The position numbers and the translations under genes were made by a program. A model generated the notes under the pieces. The model did not search any database, was not told where the DNA came from, and was given only the letters and a program-made list of their open reading frames with translations. From a virus, in the IMG/VR virus record IMGVR_UViG_3300047388_000335, positions 1 through 36,914 of that record: a DNA stretch of 36,914 bases, one strand, 5' to 3'. Shown here in pieces: positions 3,140 to 36,914 of this stretch; the first letter of the stretch is position 1, and each line of letters opens with the position of its first letter.

Positions 3140-4285
3140 ATGTCAGGCAATCGTCGTCCAGATAAAATATTCACAAAAGAAGATTCTCAAAAACTTTTAC
3201 AAAAAATTGATCCTATAAAAAGAAAGCCATTAATTTATAAATCTGGAAAAGATATACAAAAACGACCTATCAAGTGGCTTTTTGAGGATATGATTCCGAT
3301 TGGAGAAGTAACTGTATTTGCTGGTGAGCCTGGAGTTAGTAAGTCTACATTATTAATGAAAATTGGCGCATTAGTAACGATTGGCGGGATATTTAAAGCA
3401 GGAATATTTAATTTTAAAATTCCTCAAGGGAAAGTTGTTATTTTATCTATGGAAGATGCATCTGATAGTGTTGTAGTCCCTAGATTTGAAGCATCTGGCG
3501 GTGATTTAGATAATTTAAGAATCATTGAGGGAGAAATAGAAAAAGATCATTTTGGTATTGAATATGAAGATGTGATTCGGTTTGATCGTGATTTAGGAAG
3601 GCTTGCTTTAACATTAGAAGAAATAAAAGATGTGAAATTAATTATCGTCGATCCAATTACATCTTACATTGGTGATATTGATGATAATAAAAATGTTGAA
3701 GTAAGAAAAATGTATTCAAAATTAATTGGTATCGCTAGAAAATATGGATGCGCAATTATTTTAAATACCCATTTAGCAAAAGGCGCTGTTGGAAAAGGTG
3801 GAAAGGCAGCTCATAAAGTTTTAGGAAGTATTGCTTATACTGCTGCTGCTCGTGCTGTTTATTTTGTTAATTTCGATGATGATTCAAAAACAAAAAGAAA
3901 AGTTGTTCCATCTAAAAATAATTATGGAAATGACAGAGATGGATTTGCATATACAGTTAACACAGTTCAAGACGGAGAAATCAAAACAACTTGCGTTGCA
4001 TTATCCGATGAAAAGGTTAGGGAATCGGTTGATGATCTCTTTAGTGATGAAGATTCTAAGTTTGAAAAGTCAGAAATTCACAGAGCTAAAGAATTTTTAC
4101 TCAGAATATTAAAAAATGGCAACGTTTTGCGCGATGAGATCATGAAAAAGGCAGCTCAAGAAGATGTTTCTGAATCCACTTTAAAAAGAGCAAAGAGCCA
4201 GCTCAAGATAAATCATGATAGTTCAACAATTAACAAATCTAAGACAATCTGGTTCTTATCTCCACAATCTCCCTCTGAAATATAA
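3140..4285 (+). CDS. RepA-like replicative helicase/ATPase (AAA_25, RecA fold)
   Basis: A 381-residue protein. GEPGVSKS (residues 62-69) is a Walker A motif, VVILSMEDA fits the conserved strand with SMED, and LIIVDPITSYIGD carries Walker B. INTHLAKG and VLGSIAYTAAARAVYFV match later motifs of RepA/AAA_25 hexameric ATPases. The C-terminal 80 residues look like a winged-helix tail (SESTLKRAKSQL). The expected role is unwinding or loading at the origin. This is supported by the repeat-rich, very AT-rich candidate origin that starts about 30 bases after its stop codon. No primase or polymerase was recognised, so host enzymes probably complete replication. Confidence 0.8.
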   Translation: MSGNRRPDKIFTKEDSQKLLQKIDPIKRKPLIYKSGKDIQKRPIKWLFEDMIPIGEVTVFAGEPGVSKSTLLMKIGALVTIGGIFKAGIFNFKIPQGKVVILSMEDASDSVVVPRFEASGGDLDNLRIIEGEIEKDHFGIEYEDVIRFDRDLGRLALTLEEIKDVKLIIVDPITSYIGDIDDNKNVEVRKMYSKLIGIARKYGCAIILNTHLAKGAVGKGGKAAHKVLGSIAYTAAARAVYFVNFDDDSKTKRKVVPSKNNYGNDRDGFAYTVNTVQDGEIKTTCVALSDEKVRESVDDLFSDEDSKFEKSEIHRAKEFLLRILKNGNVLRDEIMKKAAQEDVSESTLKRAKSQLKINHDSSTINKSKTIWFLSPQSPSEI

Positions 4286-11186: not shown

Positions 11187-13409
11187 ATGGAACGTGATCC
11201 TAATGACGTGAATCAGGATTTTGATCCTGAGAAACTGAATGAAATGGAAGAAAGGCGCATCAATCGCTTGAATGAAGCGGGAATTGATGAGCAAGCCGTA
11301 TTAACTCAATCCAAGAAACATCTTAATATCTGGCAATCCTATTTTGGTGAGAATATCACTCGCGGCAAAGATGATATGAATTTCGTCTTGCGTGATCAAT
11401 GGACTGCGGTTGAAAGGTCAGAGTTCACGCGTTTATTTAAGCCCGCGATGACGTTTAACAAACTTTACGATGCAACAAAAAAAATAGCTGGAGAACAGCG
11501 TAAAAACAAACCAGACTTAATAGTACGGTCCTTAACAGGGAAGGCCACGCAGGAACAGATAAACCTGAGAGCAGACCTAGTACGTACGATAAGCTATCAA
11601 AGTCAAAACGATCTCGTTTATCAAACTGCATTTAAGTCAGCCCTCATGATGGGTTTCGGCGCATTTCAAATTGTGCTAGATTATGAGTCACCAAAATCAT
11701 TTAATCAAATTATTCGATATGAGCTCATATCTGATCCCACTCGTACGGCATTTGATCCGACAGCTCTCAAACCTCATAAGGGTGATGGCAACTATTGCGC
11801 TCGCTATTACGTTTTTACTAGAGATGAGTTTTTTGCTACCTATCCGTATGTCACAGATCCTGTTAGTTACATTGATCCGTATATGCTCTTGGATTTCCAA
11901 TGGCAAACACGAGACACCATAACCGTATGTGATTATTTCGTGAAAGAATGGTTTCCATTAACCATTTACAAGTTATCGGATGGTCGAACGGTTAATGAAG
12001 TTGAGTGGGAAAAGATACAGGAAGATTATAAATTACAGTTATCCATTACTGAAGAGACACAAGAAGTTAAGAAGATGGTTAAAGCAATGCAACCTCGCAT
12101 TGTGAATGAAAGACAGACTCAAGATTATCGTATTATGCATTATCGTTTGATACGTGATCAGATTATCGAGTTTAGTGAATGGCCAAGCAAACAATTACCG
12201 ATTATCTTTGTCGATGGAGATAGCTATTTTATCGAAGGCAGACAATACACAAGGTCATTTATTCATGAAGCTCGTGATGCTCAAAAATGCGTTAATTATT
12301 TCGGAAGTGAGATTGCCGCAGAGGTTAAAAATAGACGCCGTGAGCAATGGCTTGGTACGCCGGACAATATTTCTGGATATGAACAAGATTGGCGCAATCC
12401 TGAGCTTCAAATGGGTATATTACGTGCGAAACCTGATCCTAAGACTGGTCAAATGCCAGTCAAACAACCACCCTGGGATCTTTCTCCTGCAATCATGCAG
12501 AATTTCCAACGAGCTACGCAAGATATTCGCGAAATCCTTGGATTCAGCGAAACTGAATCTTTGCAAGGCCGCGATATCTCTGGCAAAGCAAGACGTGAAC
12601 GTAAATTAGAAGGATCGATGTCAGCCTATGTTTATTTTGACAATATGAGCCAAGCTGTTGAGCAAGGCGGCCGTGTTGTTAATGACTTGCTACCTCACAT
12701 CATTGGCGAAGATGAACGCACCATGGTCATCAGTAAGCGTGATGGCAAAACAGATTCCGTTAATATTAATTCACGTGACAAAGAAGGCAATTTACAGAAT
12801 GATCTAGGTCAAGGCGATTTCGATGTTGAGATTAATGCCGGTCCATCCTTTGCTGTACAGAAAGAAATAGCGCTTGAATACTTTCAAACCACCGTTTCAG
12901 CTAATCCCCAAGTATTCAATCTCATTGCAGATTTGTGGAGTGACAATCTAGACATTGAACAGCGCACACAAATAAAGGAAAGACTTGAAAATCTTGTACC
13001 TCCTGAAATTTTAGCTAAAGAAAAAGGTGAGGCGCCACCACCACCAAAGCCAGACCCTCAAATGATGCTTATGCAGGCAGAAATACAAGGGAAACAGGCT
13101 GAAATACAAAATAAAATGAAAGAAATTCAATTAAAATCTCAAAAATTAGAATTAGAGGCTCAAGAATTAGAATTGAAAAAAGCAGAAATGTTTTTAAAAG
13201 CACAAGAAACGCAAGATAAGGCTCAAGCCGATGTTTACCGTCACCAACTTGATGTCAAGAAAGCTGAAATCGTGCATGGCATGGATCATAAAAAAACCGA
13301 TCTTGATTTTAGCCATAAGGTCTCATCTCTCTTAAGTGACATTTACAAACATGACTCAAAGCTTGATCATGAGAAACAATTGCATAGAGAAAAAAAGGCT
13401 ACCGATTAG
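11187..13409 (+). CDS. P22-like portal protein
   Basis: A 740-residue protein that should form the dodecameric DNA gate at one head vertex. The N-terminal third has the pattern of the P22 portal family: the LRDQW segment, RLFKPAMTFNKLYDATKKIAGEQRKNKP, then NDLVYQTAFKSALMMGFGAF and a DPTRTAFDPTA segment. The C-terminal 130 residues are a long Gln/Glu/Lys coiled coil, fitting the helical barrel of P22-type portals. It follows the terminase block and precedes scaffold and coat. An intrinsic terminator overlaps its stop codon, and two minus-strand genes follow before the scaffold gene. Confidence 0.9.
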   Translation: MERDPNDVNQDFDPEKLNEMEERRINRLNEAGIDEQAVLTQSKKHLNIWQSYFGENITRGKDDMNFVLRDQWTAVERSEFTRLFKPAMTFNKLYDATKKIAGEQRKNKPDLIVRSLTGKATQEQINLRADLVRTISYQSQNDLVYQTAFKSALMMGFGAFQIVLDYESPKSFNQIIRYELISDPTRTAFDPTALKPHKGDGNYCARYYVFTRDEFFATYPYVTDPVSYIDPYMLLDFQWQTRDTITVCDYFVKEWFPLTIYKLSDGRTVNEVEWEKIQEDYKLQLSITEETQEVKKMVKAMQPRIVNERQTQDYRIMHYRLIRDQIIEFSEWPSKQLPIIFVDGDSYFIEGRQYTRSFIHEARDAQKCVNYFGSEIAAEVKNRRREQWLGTPDNISGYEQDWRNPELQMGILRAKPDPKTGQMPVKQPPWDLSPAIMQNFQRATQDIREILGFSETESLQGRDISGKARRERKLEGSMSAYVYFDNMSQAVEQGGRVVNDLLPHIIGEDERTMVISKRDGKTDSVNINSRDKEGNLQNDLGQGDFDVEINAGPSFAVQKEIALEYFQTTVSANPQVFNLIADLWSDNLDIEQRTQIKERLENLVPPEILAKEKGEAPPPPKPDPQMMLMQAEIQGKQAEIQNKMKEIQLKSQKLELEAQELELKKAEMFLKAQETQDKAQADVYRHQLDVKKAEIVHGMDHKKTDLDFSHKVSSLLSDIYKHDSKLDHEKQLHREKKATD

Positions 13410-13417
13410 TAGCCTTT
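13394..13417. terminator. Bidirectional terminator at convergent gene ends
   Basis: AAAGGCTAC (13394-13402), loop CGATTA and GTAGCCTTT (13409-13417) form a 9-bp stem. A six-A run precedes it, so the minus strand reads into a T-tract. It contains the stop codons of both the portal gene and the convergent endonuclease gene. Confidence 0.65.
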
Positions 13418-14028
13418 AAATATTCTATAGCAGAACCAAGATACTCAATAGAATCCTTAAATGATCCAAGGCCAACATTGCATTTGTGACACAAAAGTCC
13501 TCTTATAATATTAGTACTATGACAATGATCTATGGCTAGCATTTTAGGTTTATTAGAATTTCTTTTTCGCATAGTTTCAGGACATTTGCATATCTTACAA
13601 ACATGATTTTGTTTTTCTAACATTTCATAATATTCTAAAGCAGTTATTTTAAATCGATTCAATATAGTATAAGCATGAATTTTGTCGTGTTTTTCATGTA
13701 TAAATTCAGGTAATTTGTGTTTTATATGTTTTCTTGGCGTTGTTAAGTATTTCGTTTTATTTAATCTATTTCTTTCTATTTCATTTCTGCAAATTTTACA
13801 TTTGTAATAATAATTATCATTATATGAAGATTTTTGTTTTCTTGTTTTCTCTATTGTTAATTCACCATGAACTTTACAAATATAAAATATTCCGTTTGTT
13901 AATTTTTTTATAGGACGCTCGTAACTTTTATATTTATACCAATTATATCTATGAATTTCACATAACTTGGAATATTTATTAGAAATACTTTTTTCACGAT
14001 TACATCCATCAACTTTACAAATTTTCAT
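13399..14028 (-). CDS. Endonuclease VII-like HNH homing endonuclease
   Basis: A 209-residue protein. The core is CKICKCPETM, LAIDHCHSTNIIRGLLCHKCNVGLG, the His-Me finger of recombination endonuclease VII with its two CxxC zinc pairs. Upstream there are two further Cys pairs (CKVDGC and CKIC). Such free-standing enzymes are usually mobile homing endonucleases; a Holliday-junction resolvase role, as in T4, is the alternative. It is on the minus strand, splitting the portal-scaffold pair that is normally adjacent, which suggests insertion. ATG 14028 follows a ribosome site in a hairpin loop; the in-frame ATG at 14091 adds 21 unlikely residues. Confidence 0.8.
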   Translation of the reverse strand: MKICKVDGCNREKSISNKYSKLCEIHRYNWYKYKSYERPIKKLTNGIFYICKVHGELTIEKTRKQKSSYNDNYYYKCKICRNEIERNRLNKTKYLTTPRKHIKHKLPEFIHEKHDKIHAYTILNRFKITALEYYEMLEKQNHVCKICKCPETMRKRNSNKPKMLAIDHCHSTNIIRGLLCHKCNVGLGSFKDSIEYLGSAIEYLKATNR

Positions 14029-14029
14029 A

Positions 14030-14047
14030 AATACCTCAGCTAGTATT
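14030..14047 (-). promoter_or_regulatory. RBS hairpin, longer loop (endonuclease VII-like gene)
   Basis: On the minus strand, AATAC-(8-base loop)-GTATT just before the ATG at 14028; the loop contains TGAG followed by the stem G. It is a weaker member of the set because of the long loop. Confidence 0.35.
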
Positions 14048-14135
14048 GTCAGCAATAAATGATCAAACCAAGCCGTTGCTGAAACGGCCATTCGGGAGCT
14101 ACCCTAGATTTGAGTGAAAAATTATAAAATATAAA

Positions 14136-14339
14136 TTATTTTTTATAAACAAGAATATTAGTTTTAAACCACTCTTTCAATTCTATTTCTGAATAATACA
14201 CTTTTCCTTTTCCCTGAATTTTTATGTATGGAGGAGGTTCATTTTTAAAACGTTGCTTTTGAAACCAGGATATTGAATATCCATAAATATGCGATGCTTC
14301 TTTATCGGTAAGGTATTTTTTACCATCAATTTCAATCAT
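14136..14339 (-). CDS. HTH_17/AlpA-like small DNA-binding protein
   Basis: A 67-residue protein. KYLTDKEASHIYGYSISWFQ is a MerR/excisionase-type helix-turn-helix and GKVYYSEIELKEWFK is the matching wing and final helix. Proteins of this size act as transcription regulators or excisionases. No integrase is present, so regulation is more likely. It is in the same minus-strand island as the endonuclease VII-like gene and may be cargo of the same insertion. Confidence 0.7.
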   Translation of the reverse strand: MIEIDGKKYLTDKEASHIYGYSISWFQKQRFKNEPPPYIKIQGKGKVYYSEIELKEWFKTNILVYKK

Positions 14340-26839: not shown

Positions 26840-26853
26840 TATGTAAAAAACAG

Positions 26854-27342
26854 TTAAAAGCTTATATGCTTCCATGTATTACCACTTTTTATATTAGTAA
26901 CTATGCAATAATTAATATTTAAATCATGAGCTATCTTTGTCATTGGTTCACCTGAAACTATTCTTTGTTTAATTTCTTTTGCAATTTTTTCTGTTATTTT
27001 TGTCATTCCATTTTTTTCACCTTTTAATGCAACAAACCTTCCTTTTTTATCTCTATCTTCATTATTTTCTTTTACTGTGCCTAACCATAAATGGTTAGGG
27101 TTTACGCATTCTCTATTATCGCATGAATGACAAACTAGCAATCCTATTGGTATTTTTTTTACATATAATTCATATGAAACTCTATGCGCGGGAAATGATT
27201 TATTCGCTCCGATATTAAAATATCCATACCCTTTAATATTTTTTCTTCCCAACCATAACCAGCATTCATGTTCTTCTCCGCGCTTAAATCTCATTTCAAA
27301 TCTATAGCGAATAGAGTCAATTTTGTTTACTTTAATCTTCAT
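26854..27342 (-). CDS. HNH_3 homing endonuclease 1
   Basis: A 162-residue site-specific DNA endonuclease. The HNH core is ECWLWLG, then GYGYF, HRVSYELY, CHSCDNRECVNPNHLWLGT and ENNEDRDKKGR. The last 50 residues are a helix-turn-helix ending TNIKSGNTWKHI, used to recognise the target. It is one of three relatives in this window, all on the minus strand among plus-strand or split genes. It sits between a 48-residue gene and the main fibre gene. Confidence 0.88.
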   Translation of the reverse strand: MKIKVNKIDSIRYRFEMRFKRGEEHECWLWLGRKNIKGYGYFNIGANKSFPAHRVSYELYVKKIPIGLLVCHSCDNRECVNPNHLWLGTVKENNEDRDKKGRFVALKGEKNGMTKITEKIAKEIKQRIVSGEPMTKIAHDLNINYCIVTNIKSGNTWKHISF

Positions 27343-27366
27343 TTTTATGCCTATTTTTTAATATTA

Positions 27367-27394
27367 TTGATATAATTGTTATAATAATTATTAT
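27367..27394 (+). promoter_or_regulatory. Candidate promoter for fibre gene
   Basis: TTGATA (27367-27372), a 16-base spacer and TATTAT (27389-27394); an alternative TATAAT is at 27380. It lies between the divergent endonuclease gene and the fibre gene. Confidence 0.45.
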
Positions 27395-27428
27395 TGTCGT
27401 AAGTATATATTAATTAATTACGGCAATA
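27392..27428 (+). promoter_or_regulatory. Leader hairpin of the fibre gene
   Basis: TATTGTCGTAA (27392-27402) pairs with TTACGGCAATA (27418-27428) over 11 bp with one G-T. It stands just upstream of the RBS hairpin. No T-run, so a leader structure is more likely than a terminator. Confidence 0.4.
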
Positions 27429-27431
27429 CAA

Positions 27432-27452
27432 CTATCAAAAGGAATTTGATAG
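27432..27452 (+). promoter_or_regulatory. RBS hairpin with SD in loop (main fibre gene)
   Basis: CTATCAAA (27432-27439), loop AGGAA, TTTGATAG (27445-27452): a perfect 8-bp stem, the longest of the set, one base before the ATG. Confidence 0.75.
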
Positions 27453-27453
27453 C

Positions 27454-29718: not shown

Positions 29719-29732
29719 ATTCAAGGATGAAT
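29719..29732 (+). promoter_or_regulatory. RBS hairpin with SD in loop (interrupted fibre gene)
   Basis: ATTCA-AGGA-TGAAT: a 5-bp stem, two bases before the ATG at 29735. The core TTCAAGGATGAA contains CARGGAUG, a strong CsrA-type match. It marks the original start of the interrupted gene. Confidence 0.6.
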
Positions 29733-29734
29733 TT

Positions 29735-29764
29735 ATGGCAGGAATTATATATGGTACCAAGTAA
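29735..29764 (+). pseudogene. Cut-off 5' end of second fibre gene
   Basis: ATG GCA GGA AT starts as in the downstream fibre body, which resumes with GCC GGA ATA AAA at 30281, then runs into endonuclease sequence and stops at 29762-29764. It has an intact RBS hairpin. It is best read as the original start region, separated from its gene by the HNH insertion. Confidence 0.65.
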
Positions 29765-30224
29765 ATCTTTTTTTAATATGAAGAATTGTACTTCGGTGAA
29801 GTCCATATATTTTTGCGATGTTTTTTTGAAGCTCGCCAGATTCTATTAATTTTCTAATATTAAGGACATCTTCTTTGGATAATTTTGCATTAGGTAGAAG
29901 TTTCATAGGAAGCCCCGCTAAATTATTTTTAGCTCCTCTTCCTTTTTTTGACCTATCTAAAGCATTATCTTTTTGTGTGCCTAAAAATAAATGTTTTGGA
30001 TTAACACAAGATGGATTATCGCAGTTATGACAAATAAGCATTCCGTCAGGAATTTTTCCATATTCTTCTTGATAAGCATAGCGATGCGATCTAATTCTTT
30101 TTTGATCATATGGTTTAAATCTGCCATATCCGTTTTTATCCAATCCGCCAACCCAATTGATACAACCATTCTCATCTGGAGGGGTTGTTCTAAATTGAAA
30201 TCGTTCTTGATTAGTTTTTTTCAT
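29745..30224 (-). CDS. HNH_3 homing endonuclease 2, inserted in a fibre gene
   Basis: A 159-residue protein of the same family as the genes at 26854 and 36212: GCINWVGGLDKNGYGRF, HRYAYQEEYG, CHNCDNPSCVNPKHLFLGT, DNALDRSKKGRG, then a C-terminal helix-turn-helix ending ILHIKKRFTWYHI. It is antisense to the fibre gene and its stop codon overlaps the fragment carrying the original fibre start. No clear ribosome site is visible before its ATG. Confidence 0.88.
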   Translation of the reverse strand: MKKTNQERFQFRTTPPDENGCINWVGGLDKNGYGRFKPYDQKRIRSHRYAYQEEYGKIPDGMLICHNCDNPSCVNPKHLFLGTQKDNALDRSKKGRGAKNNLAGLPMKLLPNAKLSKEDVLNIRKLIESGELQKNIAKIYGLHRSTILHIKKRFTWYHI

Positions 30225-30288
30225 AATCAGATTATATTGCTTATGGACGGCAATATCAACATACGGAGCATGCCATCATCGCCGGAAT
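29746..30288 (-). mobile_element. Putative endonuclease insertion in fibre gene
   Basis: Short direct repeats GCAGGAAT (29738-29745) and GCCGGAAT (30281-30288) flank a 543-base segment that is nearly all endonuclease gene. This leaves too little room for a normal group I intron core. It is most simply a free-standing endonuclease element inserted in the first codons of a fibre gene. Boundaries are inferred from the repeat. Confidence 0.5.
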
Positions 30289-31711
30289 AAAAATATCAGC
30301 TTTACCCGCAATCCCATCATCAGCATTAACGGATGTTGCACCTTTTGTTCAAAGTGGTGTTACTTATAAAGCAACTAACTCTCAATTAACTACCTTATTT
30401 AATTCTAATATTCAATTATCAAGTGTCGCTCAAGTTACTGGTTTGCCAGCCGCCTTAGCCTCATTCTTACCATTAGCTGGTGGCACCATGTCAGGTGTTA
30501 TTGATATGGGAAATAATTTTATCCAGAATTTAACAGATCCTATCAATCCACAAGATGCTGCAACAAAAGCCTATGCTGATTTGGCAGGCGGTGGATTTAC
30601 CGTTATCTTAGCTGCTGATTATGCAACAACTGCAAATTTAAATGCGACTCAAGCAGGTGCTGGAGTTGGAGCAACACTTACTAATGCGGGAGTAATGGCT
30701 GCATTTTCCGTGGATGGGGCGTCACCTACTATTAATCAGCGTATTTTAGTTAAGAATCAAACTTTAACTCAGCACAATGGTGTTTATAATTTAACGACAA
30801 TTGGATCAGCTATTGCAAATTGGGTTTTAACTCGAGCAACTGATTATGATCAAGCAGCTGAAATTCAACCTGGCACTTTAATCGCAGTGAATGGCGGTAC
30901 AGTTAATGCCAATACTTCATGGCTTGAGACTGCTACAGTAGTCGTGGTTGATACAGATCCTGTTTTATTCTCACAATTCACTTTTGCACCTTCTTCATTC
31001 TTCCTGATAGCTAATAATTTATCGGAAGGTGTGCCAGCAACCATGCGCACTAATTTAGGTCTGACGGGCGCTGCCACAATGACGTTGCCCGTATCTGCCG
31101 CTAATGGTGGTACCGGTATTGCTAACTCTAATACCATTACATTGGGTGGTAATGTTATTACAGCAGGCGCTCATACATTGGCAGGTGCTTTTGCTTCAAC
31201 ATTTACATTTACTGGCGCAACATCTGTTACATTTCCAACCTCCGGAACATTGATTACCGATGCACAACCAACTATCAATCAACCGAATATTGTGGGTACG
31301 ACGACAAATGATAATGCGGCGACCGGATCTGTTGGTGAATTTGTATCAGCGCAAGTGCTTTTTGCTGCAAGATTAAATATTACATCAACTGGCGTTGCAA
31401 GAAACGTCACGACCATTTCTCTGACAGCAGGTGATTGGGATGTGCAAGGCGGTGTTTATTTCCTAGGTAATGGATCAGCATCAACAGCTTATCACTCCTG
31501 GTGTTCATTGACTTCAGCAACAGAACCGGATTTATCTTTGATTGCTCAGGTGGGTATTTCTGGAGGAAATGTGGTTAATAATGCTCTTACTACTCAACCT
31601 TTGCGAGTCAGTATTGCTGGAACAACGACCGTTTATTTATCATGCTTAGCTACTTTTACTGCTGGGACGCCTCAATGTTGTGGTTTTATAAGAGCAAGAC
31701 GAATAAGATAA
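30281..31711 (+). CDS. Second tail fibre protein, 5' end displaced by insertion
   Basis: The frame is open from 30227 and clearly coding from 30281 (AGIKISALPAIPSSALTDVA), but has no ATG upstream of the coding part; the nearest candidate is a TTG at 30443 without a good ribosome site. Inside are an attachment-like start, LPLAGGTMSGVIDMGNNFI (common fibre motif), a module shared with the 25299 protein (ILVKNQTLTQHNGVYNLTT, LTRATDYDQAAEI), and a C-terminal domain (GDWDVQGGVYFLG to the end) like C1q/TNF-type fibre tips. It may be inactive, start internally, or be joined to its start by splicing. Confidence 0.65.
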   Translation, partial: AGIKISALPAIPSSALTDVAPFVQSGVTYKATNSQLTTLFNSNIQLSSVAQVTGLPAALASFLPLAGGTMSGVIDMGNNFIQNLTDPINPQDAATKAYADLAGGGFTVILAADYATTANLNATQAGAGVGATLTNAGVMAAFSVDGASPTINQRILVKNQTLTQHNGVYNLTTIGSAIANWVLTRATDYDQAAEIQPGTLIAVNGGTVNANTSWLETATVVVVDTDPVLFSQFTFAPSSFFLIANNLSEGVPATMRTNLGLTGAATMTLPVSAANGGTGIANSNTITLGGNVITAGAHTLAGAFASTFTFTGATSVTFPTSGTLITDAQPTINQPNIVGTTTNDNAATGSVGEFVSAQVLFAARLNITSTGVARNVTTISLTAGDWDVQGGVYFLGNGSASTAYHSWCSLTSATEPDLSLIAQVGISGGNVVNNALTTQPLRVSIAGTTTVYLSCLATFTAGTPQCCGFIRARRIR

Positions 31712-35386: not shown

Positions 35387-35760
35387 TTCATCAATTCCCA
35401 ATTATTCCCAACCATGTCTTTCCAGCTCGGCATAAAATCATACTCAACAGGTTTGCATAGTGCTAATTGATCTTTGTCGACAAAAAGAAACTGGCCTTCT
35501 GGCCAGATATCCTTGCGTATGGATTTTTTAATTTTTAATTCTTCCAACGCCTCCACAAAATTCAATTCAACATTATCGCCATCAACTACTTTCCATTTCG
35601 TAGAAATAAGAATCTCAGCATTAACATAATAGGCGCTATATTCTCCACGAAATGTAACAGCCTTATCATTGATAATTTTCACATGCATCAATGGTTCCCA
35701 TTCTTTACAGCGGATCTTTTTACCATTTAATAATTCTTTATGTGCTTTGTCGAAGTTCAT
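35383..35760 (-). CDS. Tandem DUF2829 (Tad2-like) protein, candidate anti-Thoeris factor
   Basis: A 125-residue protein made of two related units. Unit 1, residues 1-60: MNFDKAHKELLNGKKIRCKEW to KWKVVD. Unit 2, residues 66-125: LNFVEALEELKIKKSIRKDIW to MPSWKDMVGNNWELMK. Each has the DUF2829 shape: F.eAl..Lk.Gk.i.r..W at the start and a final W.(D)..(N)W(E/K)(V/L). DUF2829 contains Tad2, which binds the cyclic-nucleotide signal of Thoeris defence. Whether pocket residues are kept cannot be judged by eye. The partial copy at 1-268 is nearly identical. Confidence 0.65.
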   Translation of the reverse strand: MNFDKAHKELLNGKKIRCKEWEPLMHVKIINDKAVTFRGEYSAYYVNAEILISTKWKVVDGDNVELNFVEALEELKIKKSIRKDIWPEGQFLFVDKDQLALCKPVEYDFMPSWKDMVGNNWELMK

Positions 35761-35768
35761 GTTAGTCC

Positions 35769-36212
35769 TTAAAATGGGATTGAATCATTGAGAAAATTAT
35801 CTTTAACATCTGGCAATGGTTTCATTAGCGATCCAACTGGAGTTGTAATATAGTCAACCACAATATTTTTATCTGGATATTGTCCACTCTTATCAACTTG
35901 AATACCAATTTTTACAGATCCGCATTTTCCTATACAGTCATAGGAATTTAGAGTTTTACTATTATATTGATCCATAAGGCCAACAACGTCTGCAAAATGT
36001 CCTAATTTATATTCTAATGCTTCAAGAAGATAATCAAATACTATTCTCTCTCGACCATCTTCTAACCATATTTTTATTTGCAATTTAATCATATCATTGC
36101 CTGATTTACTTATAGTATCCTCAGCATTTAAAATTTCAAACTTGTAAATTCCTTTTGGTATTAAATCACCTTGCTTTAATTCTTGGATTGATAATGGTTT
36201 GTTAATGTTCAT
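35769..36212 (-). CDS. DUF669-like single-stranded DNA-binding protein (allele 2)
   Basis: A 147-residue protein matching allele 1 (277-726) at both ends: NIVVDYI.TP.GSLMKPLP and the acidic DNFLNDSIPF tail are nearly the same, while the middle (about residues 15-110) is strongly diverged. The SSB-like tail again argues for ssDNA binding and partner recruitment. Its start overlaps the HNH stop (TAATG). The change of allele coincides with the HNH gene next to it. Confidence 0.7.
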   Translation of the reverse strand: MNINKPLSIQELKQGDLIPKGIYKFEILNAEDTISKSGNDMIKLQIKIWLEDGRERIVFDYLLEALEYKLGHFADVVGLMDQYNSKTLNSYDCIGKCGSVKIGIQVDKSGQYPDKNIVVDYITTPVGSLMKPLPDVKDNFLNDSIPF

Positions 36213-36736
36213 TATAAATGTCTCCAGCTTTTATTAGATTTTATAAAGTAAATATTTTGACGTGTAACTCCATATTGTTTAGCTATTTTGTTTCCGGCTT
36301 CACCTTTTTTTAATTTTTCTTTTATTTCTAAAACATCCCTTTCACACAGCTTTGATAAATTACTTTTAGAACCTCTAGCAATAGGAGGGCTACTATTTCT
36401 ATTTTTCTTTATACAATCATTTATATTATCCTTGGCAGTTCCTAAAAATAAATGTTTTGGATTAATACAAGGAGGATTATCACAATGATGACAAACATGA
36501 ATATTTTTAGATATTTTTCCATAATAAAATTCATAGGATTTTCTATGAGCTAAATATTCTTTATTTTTAAATGAAATAGATCCATATCCATTTTTCTTAA
36601 TTGTTCCAGTATATATTATACAGTCATTGTCCATTTTTTTAGATTTATATCTAAGGATATTTTCTAACGTATATGGAATTTTTGTATTTTTAATAAATAT
36701 ATTTCTTTCTAATCCTTTTATTTTATGGAGTCCCAT
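36212..36736 (-). CDS. HNH_3 homing endonuclease 3, between sak4 and ssb genes
   Basis: A 174-residue protein: DCIIYTGTIKKNGYGSI, HRKSYEFYYG, CHHCDNPPCINPKHLFLGT, DNINDCIKKNRN and a C-terminal helix-turn-helix ending NIYFIKSNKSWRHL. It is related to the genes at 26854 and 29745. It fits between its neighbours with TAATG overlaps on both sides, so translation of the operon is not broken. The left-end copy of the locus lacks it, so it is polymorphic in the population. Confidence 0.88.
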   Translation of the reverse strand: MGLHKIKGLERNIFIKNTKIPYTLENILRYKSKKMDNDCIIYTGTIKKNGYGSISFKNKEYLAHRKSYEFYYGKISKNIHVCHHCDNPPCINPKHLFLGTAKDNINDCIKKNRNSSPPIARGSKSNLSKLCERDVLEIKEKLKKGEAGNKIAKQYGVTRQNIYFIKSNKSWRHL

Positions 36737-36914
36737 TATGCCACCTCACTTGTGGCTTTTGCTTTATTTTCCATGTGTGTAATTAACTTTAAAATGACTG
36801 ATTCATTTAATTCATCTAATGTCTCAGCATTCGCTTTGTCTAACCATTTCTGCACAACTTCTTCTGGTTCTTTATAAAGATCGATCAATACCTTTAATCT
36901 TCCCACTTGTTCAC
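36736..36914 (-). CDS. C-terminal fragment of the Sak4-like ATPase (cut by window edge)
   Basis: The last 58 residues of the ATPase that is complete at 723-1601. Coding bases 36756-36914 are identical to 743-901; only the last residues differ (KATSEVA instead of KVQGEVA), next to the HNH gene. The stop codon overlaps the HNH start (TAATG). Confidence 0.8.
   Translation of the reverse strand, partial: EQVGRLKVLIDLYKEPEEVVQKWLDKANAETLDELNESVILKLITHMENKAKATSEVA

Follow-up and report, generated by a model that had tools for sequence, protein, structure and literature searches.

A viral tail-fibre gene separated from its start codon by an antisense HNH endonuclease gene with a sigma-70-like promoter

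Organization of the fibre locus

The window analysed is a 36,914-nucleotide stretch of viral DNA (IMG/VR record IMGVR_UViG_3300047388_000335). It carries a tail-fibre gene on the plus strand in two parts, which are separated by an antisense HNH gene. The left part is the native translation start (29719-29737, plus strand), a hairpin (ATTCA-AGGA-TGAAT) with the Shine-Dalgarno sequence in its loop, followed by ATG at 29735-29737. AAGGA precedes the ATG GCA GGA AT beginning at 29735, and the native start region extends over 29719-29745. A relic frame, MAGIIYGTK-stop (29735-29764, plus strand), arises where the opening 11 bases of the fibre (ATGGCAGGAAT) run into the end of the HNH cassette. The body of the fibre (AGIKISALPA..., 30281-31711, plus strand) begins with GCC GGA ATA AAA at 30281, matches tail-fibre PHROGs and comprises 476 open codons without a canonical start. 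Its frame is open from 30227 to 31711 and contains no ATG, GTG or TTG before TTG 30443. In-frame stops are numerous from the left start up to 30224, the first at 29762. A preceding sequence-only reading had described a ribosome-binding-site hairpin with ATG GCA GGA AT at 29735 and a fibre frame at 30281 lacking its own ATG, and both descriptions hold. It had also placed repeats of GC(A/C)GGAAT around 543 bases. The offset from 29738 to 30281 is exactly 543 bases, but the flanking direct repeat is really ATGGCAGGAAT / ATCGCCGGAAT, with 9 of 11 bases matching. This repeat is more than a chance match, because orthologues start with MAG[IV]KIS and both halves of the start are recognisable.

The antisense gene between the start halves (29745-30224, minus strand) is intact, as had been noted before, and encodes a homing-type endonuclease of 159 aa with an HNH_3 domain and a C-terminal resolvase-like helix-turn-helix (HTH). 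Pfam assigns HNH_3 above the cut-off (1.6e-12) and HTH_7 just below it (E 1.1e-4); the PHROG match is HNH endonuclease. Relatives of the HNH in 1480 phage records include T7-like free-standing HNHs among the best. Solved structures compared with the HNH profile yielded none matching, and an NCBIfam search gave no match. The cassette as a whole (29745-30262, minus strand) is shared with one related contig, L156, in a DNA alignment from TTATATATGRTACC, where the HNH coding region ends, to CAACAT(A). A search of viral contigs for the cassette end or the subfamily motif KNNLxGLPMK found further copies only in the L156 contig. An HNH antisense to the genes on both sides was counted in 9 of 117 HNH neighbourhoods, three of them being the window's two and that of L156, a figure from naive, rough gene calls that serves as an indication only.

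A sigma-70-like promoter of the HNH gene, TTGATA-17-TATAAT (30231-30259, minus strand), ends 6 bases before the HNH ATG and is the only 11/12 sigma-70 match in the window. L156 has identical hexamers and spacing. In the HNH leader stretch, 30 of 32 aligned bases are identical to L156 (94%), against 70% in the coding DNA. The HNH message from the predicted promoter would be almost leaderless. A dyad, ATATTGC...GCAATAT, spans the spacer and hexamers and is kept in L156. Its role as an operator is only a suggestion, made by analogy to I-TevI autorepression (T4 td intron) as a possible parallel. Unlike I-TevI, the window HNH has no intron, and binding of the dyad by the HNH is putative.

The hairpin of the left start, which is missing from the leader to the right of the cassette, has an unexceptional fold energy when taken alone. 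As a class, hairpins of this kind are real. Of 17 window genes with an AGGA Shine-Dalgarno, 8 have it in the loop of a stem of at least 4 bp, with 1.0 expected for permuted arms. These 8 genes start at 3140, 6534, 14339 (minus strand), 20252, 25299, 26372, 27454 and 29735. Among MAGxKIS starts, 7 of 16 have a Shine-Dalgarno-loop hairpin, with 1.9 expected (permutation p <= 2e-4); the fibre starts of L142, L005, L150 and L160 follow the design at 29719-29737. The window, these four contigs and L158 have AGGA in the loops of short, perfectly paired hairpins immediately 5' of ATG, and the stem sequences differ from gene to gene. Judged from these starts, the Shine-Dalgarno hairpin is a predicted translation-start design common to the whole family.

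Empty and occupied sites in related viruses

No close relative of the fibre or the portal was found among annotated phages; the fibre N-terminus has close relatives in IMG/VR. The 35.5 kb contig L142 encodes a fibre N-terminus 86% identical to that of the window, with the same neighbour genes and no insert. Its upstream fibre gene ends in ...AAATAA, followed by AAAAAGGATTTTAT ATG GCAGGTATAAAG. The L142 fibre begins ATG GCA GGT ATA AAG (MAGIKIS), and the empty site reads ATGGCAGGTATAAAG. L005 likewise starts with MAGIKIS and L004 with MAGVKIS. Among the non-identical MAGxKIS sites compared, the 25 others have ATG and the window alone has ATC; the site in L166 is an apparent internal domain of a longer protein. 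The insert is absent from the other MAGxKIS phages examined, as it is from L142. The left half-start is taken as native and the insert as derived, because L142, L005, L004 and the 25 MAGxKIS starts use ATG and the gene is uninterrupted in L142. Purifying selection acts on the fibre, with dN/dS relative to L142 of 0.055 in codons 1-75 and 0.18 in codons 75-270. In L143 (4001), a fibre relative starts with the non-ATG sequence TTG TCG GGC ATA AAA after AAAGGAGAG.

L156 represents the occupied site. An antisense HNH, 61% identical, lies directly upstream of its MAGIKIS gene. The upstream end of the cassette, which includes the promoter, is common to both (TATATTGC..ATGGACGGCAATATCAACATA), and in L156 AGGGAG and ATG follow. 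The comparison of relatives with and without the insert thus bears out the earlier proposal that an HNH gene entered a tail-fibre gene within its opening codons.

Further endonuclease genes are present in the window. A second antisense HNH_3 gene (26854-27342, region 26840-27453) lies just upstream of a 751-aa fibre gene (ATG 27454). To its left a relic, ...GCTTGATATG-TAA, is found, and to its right the 8-bp hairpin of the fibre gene with the Shine-Dalgarno in the loop. L142 lacks this second HNH, and there the gene end and the ATG nearly touch. The motif ACGGCAATA is common to the second HNH locus and the first cassette. The two ends of the contig (1-901 and 35493-36914) carry a single locus in different versions: 743-901 equals 36756-36914 exactly, and 1-395 is 91% identical to 35493-35887. 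The version at the end has an HNH gene (36212-36736) between a Sak4-like gene and a diverged partner of gene 277-726; the version at the start has no HNH. Their sequences suggest a circular genome whose assembly ran through two alleles present in the population. An antisense endonuclease VII-like gene (Pfam Endonuclease_7) and a 67-aa HTH gene (13399-14339, minus strand) lie between the portal and the next plus-strand gene. This locus is possibly another homing-type insertion, of the F-CphI sort.

Insertion reading and alternatives

The locus very probably arose when a free-standing antisense HNH homing endonuclease gene, equipped with its own promoter, inserted where translation of the tail fibre begins. 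As in the class of free-standing HNHs, the protein combines a catalytic domain with a separate DNA-binding domain, one site is polymorphic for its presence (empty in L142, occupied in L156), and the gene is located outside any intron or intein. Its function as a homing endonuclease, with cleavage and preferential inheritance, is putative and deduced from sequence. The endonuclease would cut empty fibre alleles near the conserved MAGIKIS start. Repair would then copy the cassette in, guided on its right side by homology to the fibre gene and joined on its left through short homology after ATGGCAGGAAT. One-sided, microhomology-joined double-strand-break repair has been described for T4 homing elements (PMC2988022). 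The left cassette edges differ, the window retaining 11 fibre-gene bases and L156 none, and fit one-sided repair. After insertion, the fibre would rely, as it does in L156, on the leader that borders the cassette on the right; the origin proposed for this leader is drawn from one relative only.

The replacement leader (30263-30280, plus strand) contains GGAG at 30265-30268 and two in-frame ATC codons at 30275-30280. The window thus has CGGAG and ATC, L156 AGGGAG and ATG at the matching place. With GGAG and ATC instead of ATG, the fibre would be silent or translated only very weakly from AUC, unless an ATG variant is masked in the assembly. Within the insertion reading, a fibre gene that is silent or hardly expressed is the most likely sub-case, held with about even confidence. 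The state of the fibre gene counts against disruption: it has not decayed, its 476 codons are open, and dN/dS against L142 is 0.055 over the first 75 codons. Accordingly, the insertion happened recently or synthesis of the N-terminus continues; the open frame likewise points to a recent event or to a product that is still of use. Inactivation, a weak internal start and repair at the RNA level had all been considered in the sequence-only reading. Disruption or a near-cognate AUC start is preferred. TTG 30443 has no Shine-Dalgarno, and a start there removes residues 1-54, within the most constrained part; nothing indicates RNA repair.

Use of AUC and a hidden ATG variant both fall within the insertion reading and do not compete with it. 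Normal expression from the near-cognate AUC at 30278 (or 30275), the cassette side having supplied a working start, is rather doubtful. The two in-frame ATC codons lie 6 and 9 bases after GGAG, L156 has GGGAG and ATG at the corresponding place, the fibre N-terminus is strongly conserved, and L143 uses a non-ATG codon (TTG) at the same gene. However, AUC is expected to be a poor start codon, the 25 other MAGxKIS starts are all ATG, and the usual hairpin is missing from the replacement leader. AUC forms a third-position C-C mismatch with the CAU anticodon; strong third-position pairs are favoured by IF3 (PMC10158994). A wrong or mixed metagenome consensus at the start, with part of the population having ATG or lacking the HNH, is considered unlikely. 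The ends of this 36.9 kb contig, two versions of one locus with and without an HNH, make a strain mixture plausible, and at the ATC a one-base difference in the assembly or within the population is possible. However, the HNH cassette is coherent and matches L156 over its full length, and consensus errors of short reads are rare.

Other origins of the insert have far lower probabilities. A transposable element with target-site duplication, to which the short direct repeat would correspond, is very improbable: two copies of the fibre start explain the repeat, and L156 has a different left edge. There is no transposase and the edges have no terminal inverted repeats, and an insertion sequence was rejected. 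A self-splicing intron or another RNA-level element that carries the HNH and restores the fibre mRNA has only the slightest likelihood. In its favour are a reading frame that stays intact on either side, an insert length divisible by three and plus-strand folding of z = -2.75. However, control windows of the genome go down to z = -3.1, the L156 insert has -0.05, and the consensus folding energy collapses; the folding excess was dropped as within the genomic control range and not common to L156. Rfam gave no match beyond chance even at E = 10, and covariance models at permissive thresholds found no group I ribozyme core. Folding of the insert with intron models, proposed earlier, yielded no matching model. 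L156 needs no splicing, since its insert lies upstream of an intact start. The unusual splicing element considered in the earlier reading is thus rejected on the absence of Rfam matches, the many in-frame stops, folding like the rest of the genome and the intact start of L156. An intein was rejected as well, the insert not being translatable in frame past its many stops (first at 29762). Ribosomal bypass from GGA (29741) to GGA (30284), as in T4 gene 60, has matching GGA codons at both edges in its favour and is next to negligible: L156 does not need it, the gap of T4 gene 60 is about 50 bases and the gap here about 540 (543 bases inserted), and the codon after the take-off GGA is ATT, not a stop. 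A mobile HNH gene is also found near T4 gene 60.

Known systems and biological meaning

As a mobile gene, the element is of an ordinary kind; its position is unusually disruptive and its details are mildly unusual. Free-standing HNHs of the T7 gp7.7 type resemble it in their HNH_3-type core, C-terminal helix-turn-helix, similar size and location among structural genes; T7-like free-standing HNHs are about 43-46% identical to the window HNH over most of its length. Unlike these, the window HNH is antisense to its neighbours and lies inside the start region of a gene, not cleanly between genes. The free-standing GIY-YIG gene segD of T4 is likewise antisense between late structural genes, and it is the only T4 homing gene in this orientation (PMC2988022). 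It belongs to another nuclease family. A dedicated promoter was not found for segD; the window HNH, by contrast, has a consensus sigma-70 promoter. The ShiLan domain is an HNH concealed within the gene of a phage methylase (PMC11855218). In both cases the HNH is inserted into a protein-coding gene, and no splicing element is detectable. The host frame of ShiLan stays open, whereas the window insert contains many stops and sits at the start codon.

It is conceivable, though improbable, that the cassette takes over the translation start of the invaded gene, so that the fibre depends on the leader left behind, here with AUC. If so, the phage would produce little fibre, or would regain it when the cassette is lost via the flanking repeats. 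For annotators, the consequence is that the fibre will be called from the false internal start TTG 30443. A promoter whose message would be almost leaderless may be what lets the gene work in antisense orientation. The locus offers a clear example from nature of a homing gene inside a translation start, which can be compared with an empty site and with a benign occupied one; the example shows how homing genes can damage a structural gene.
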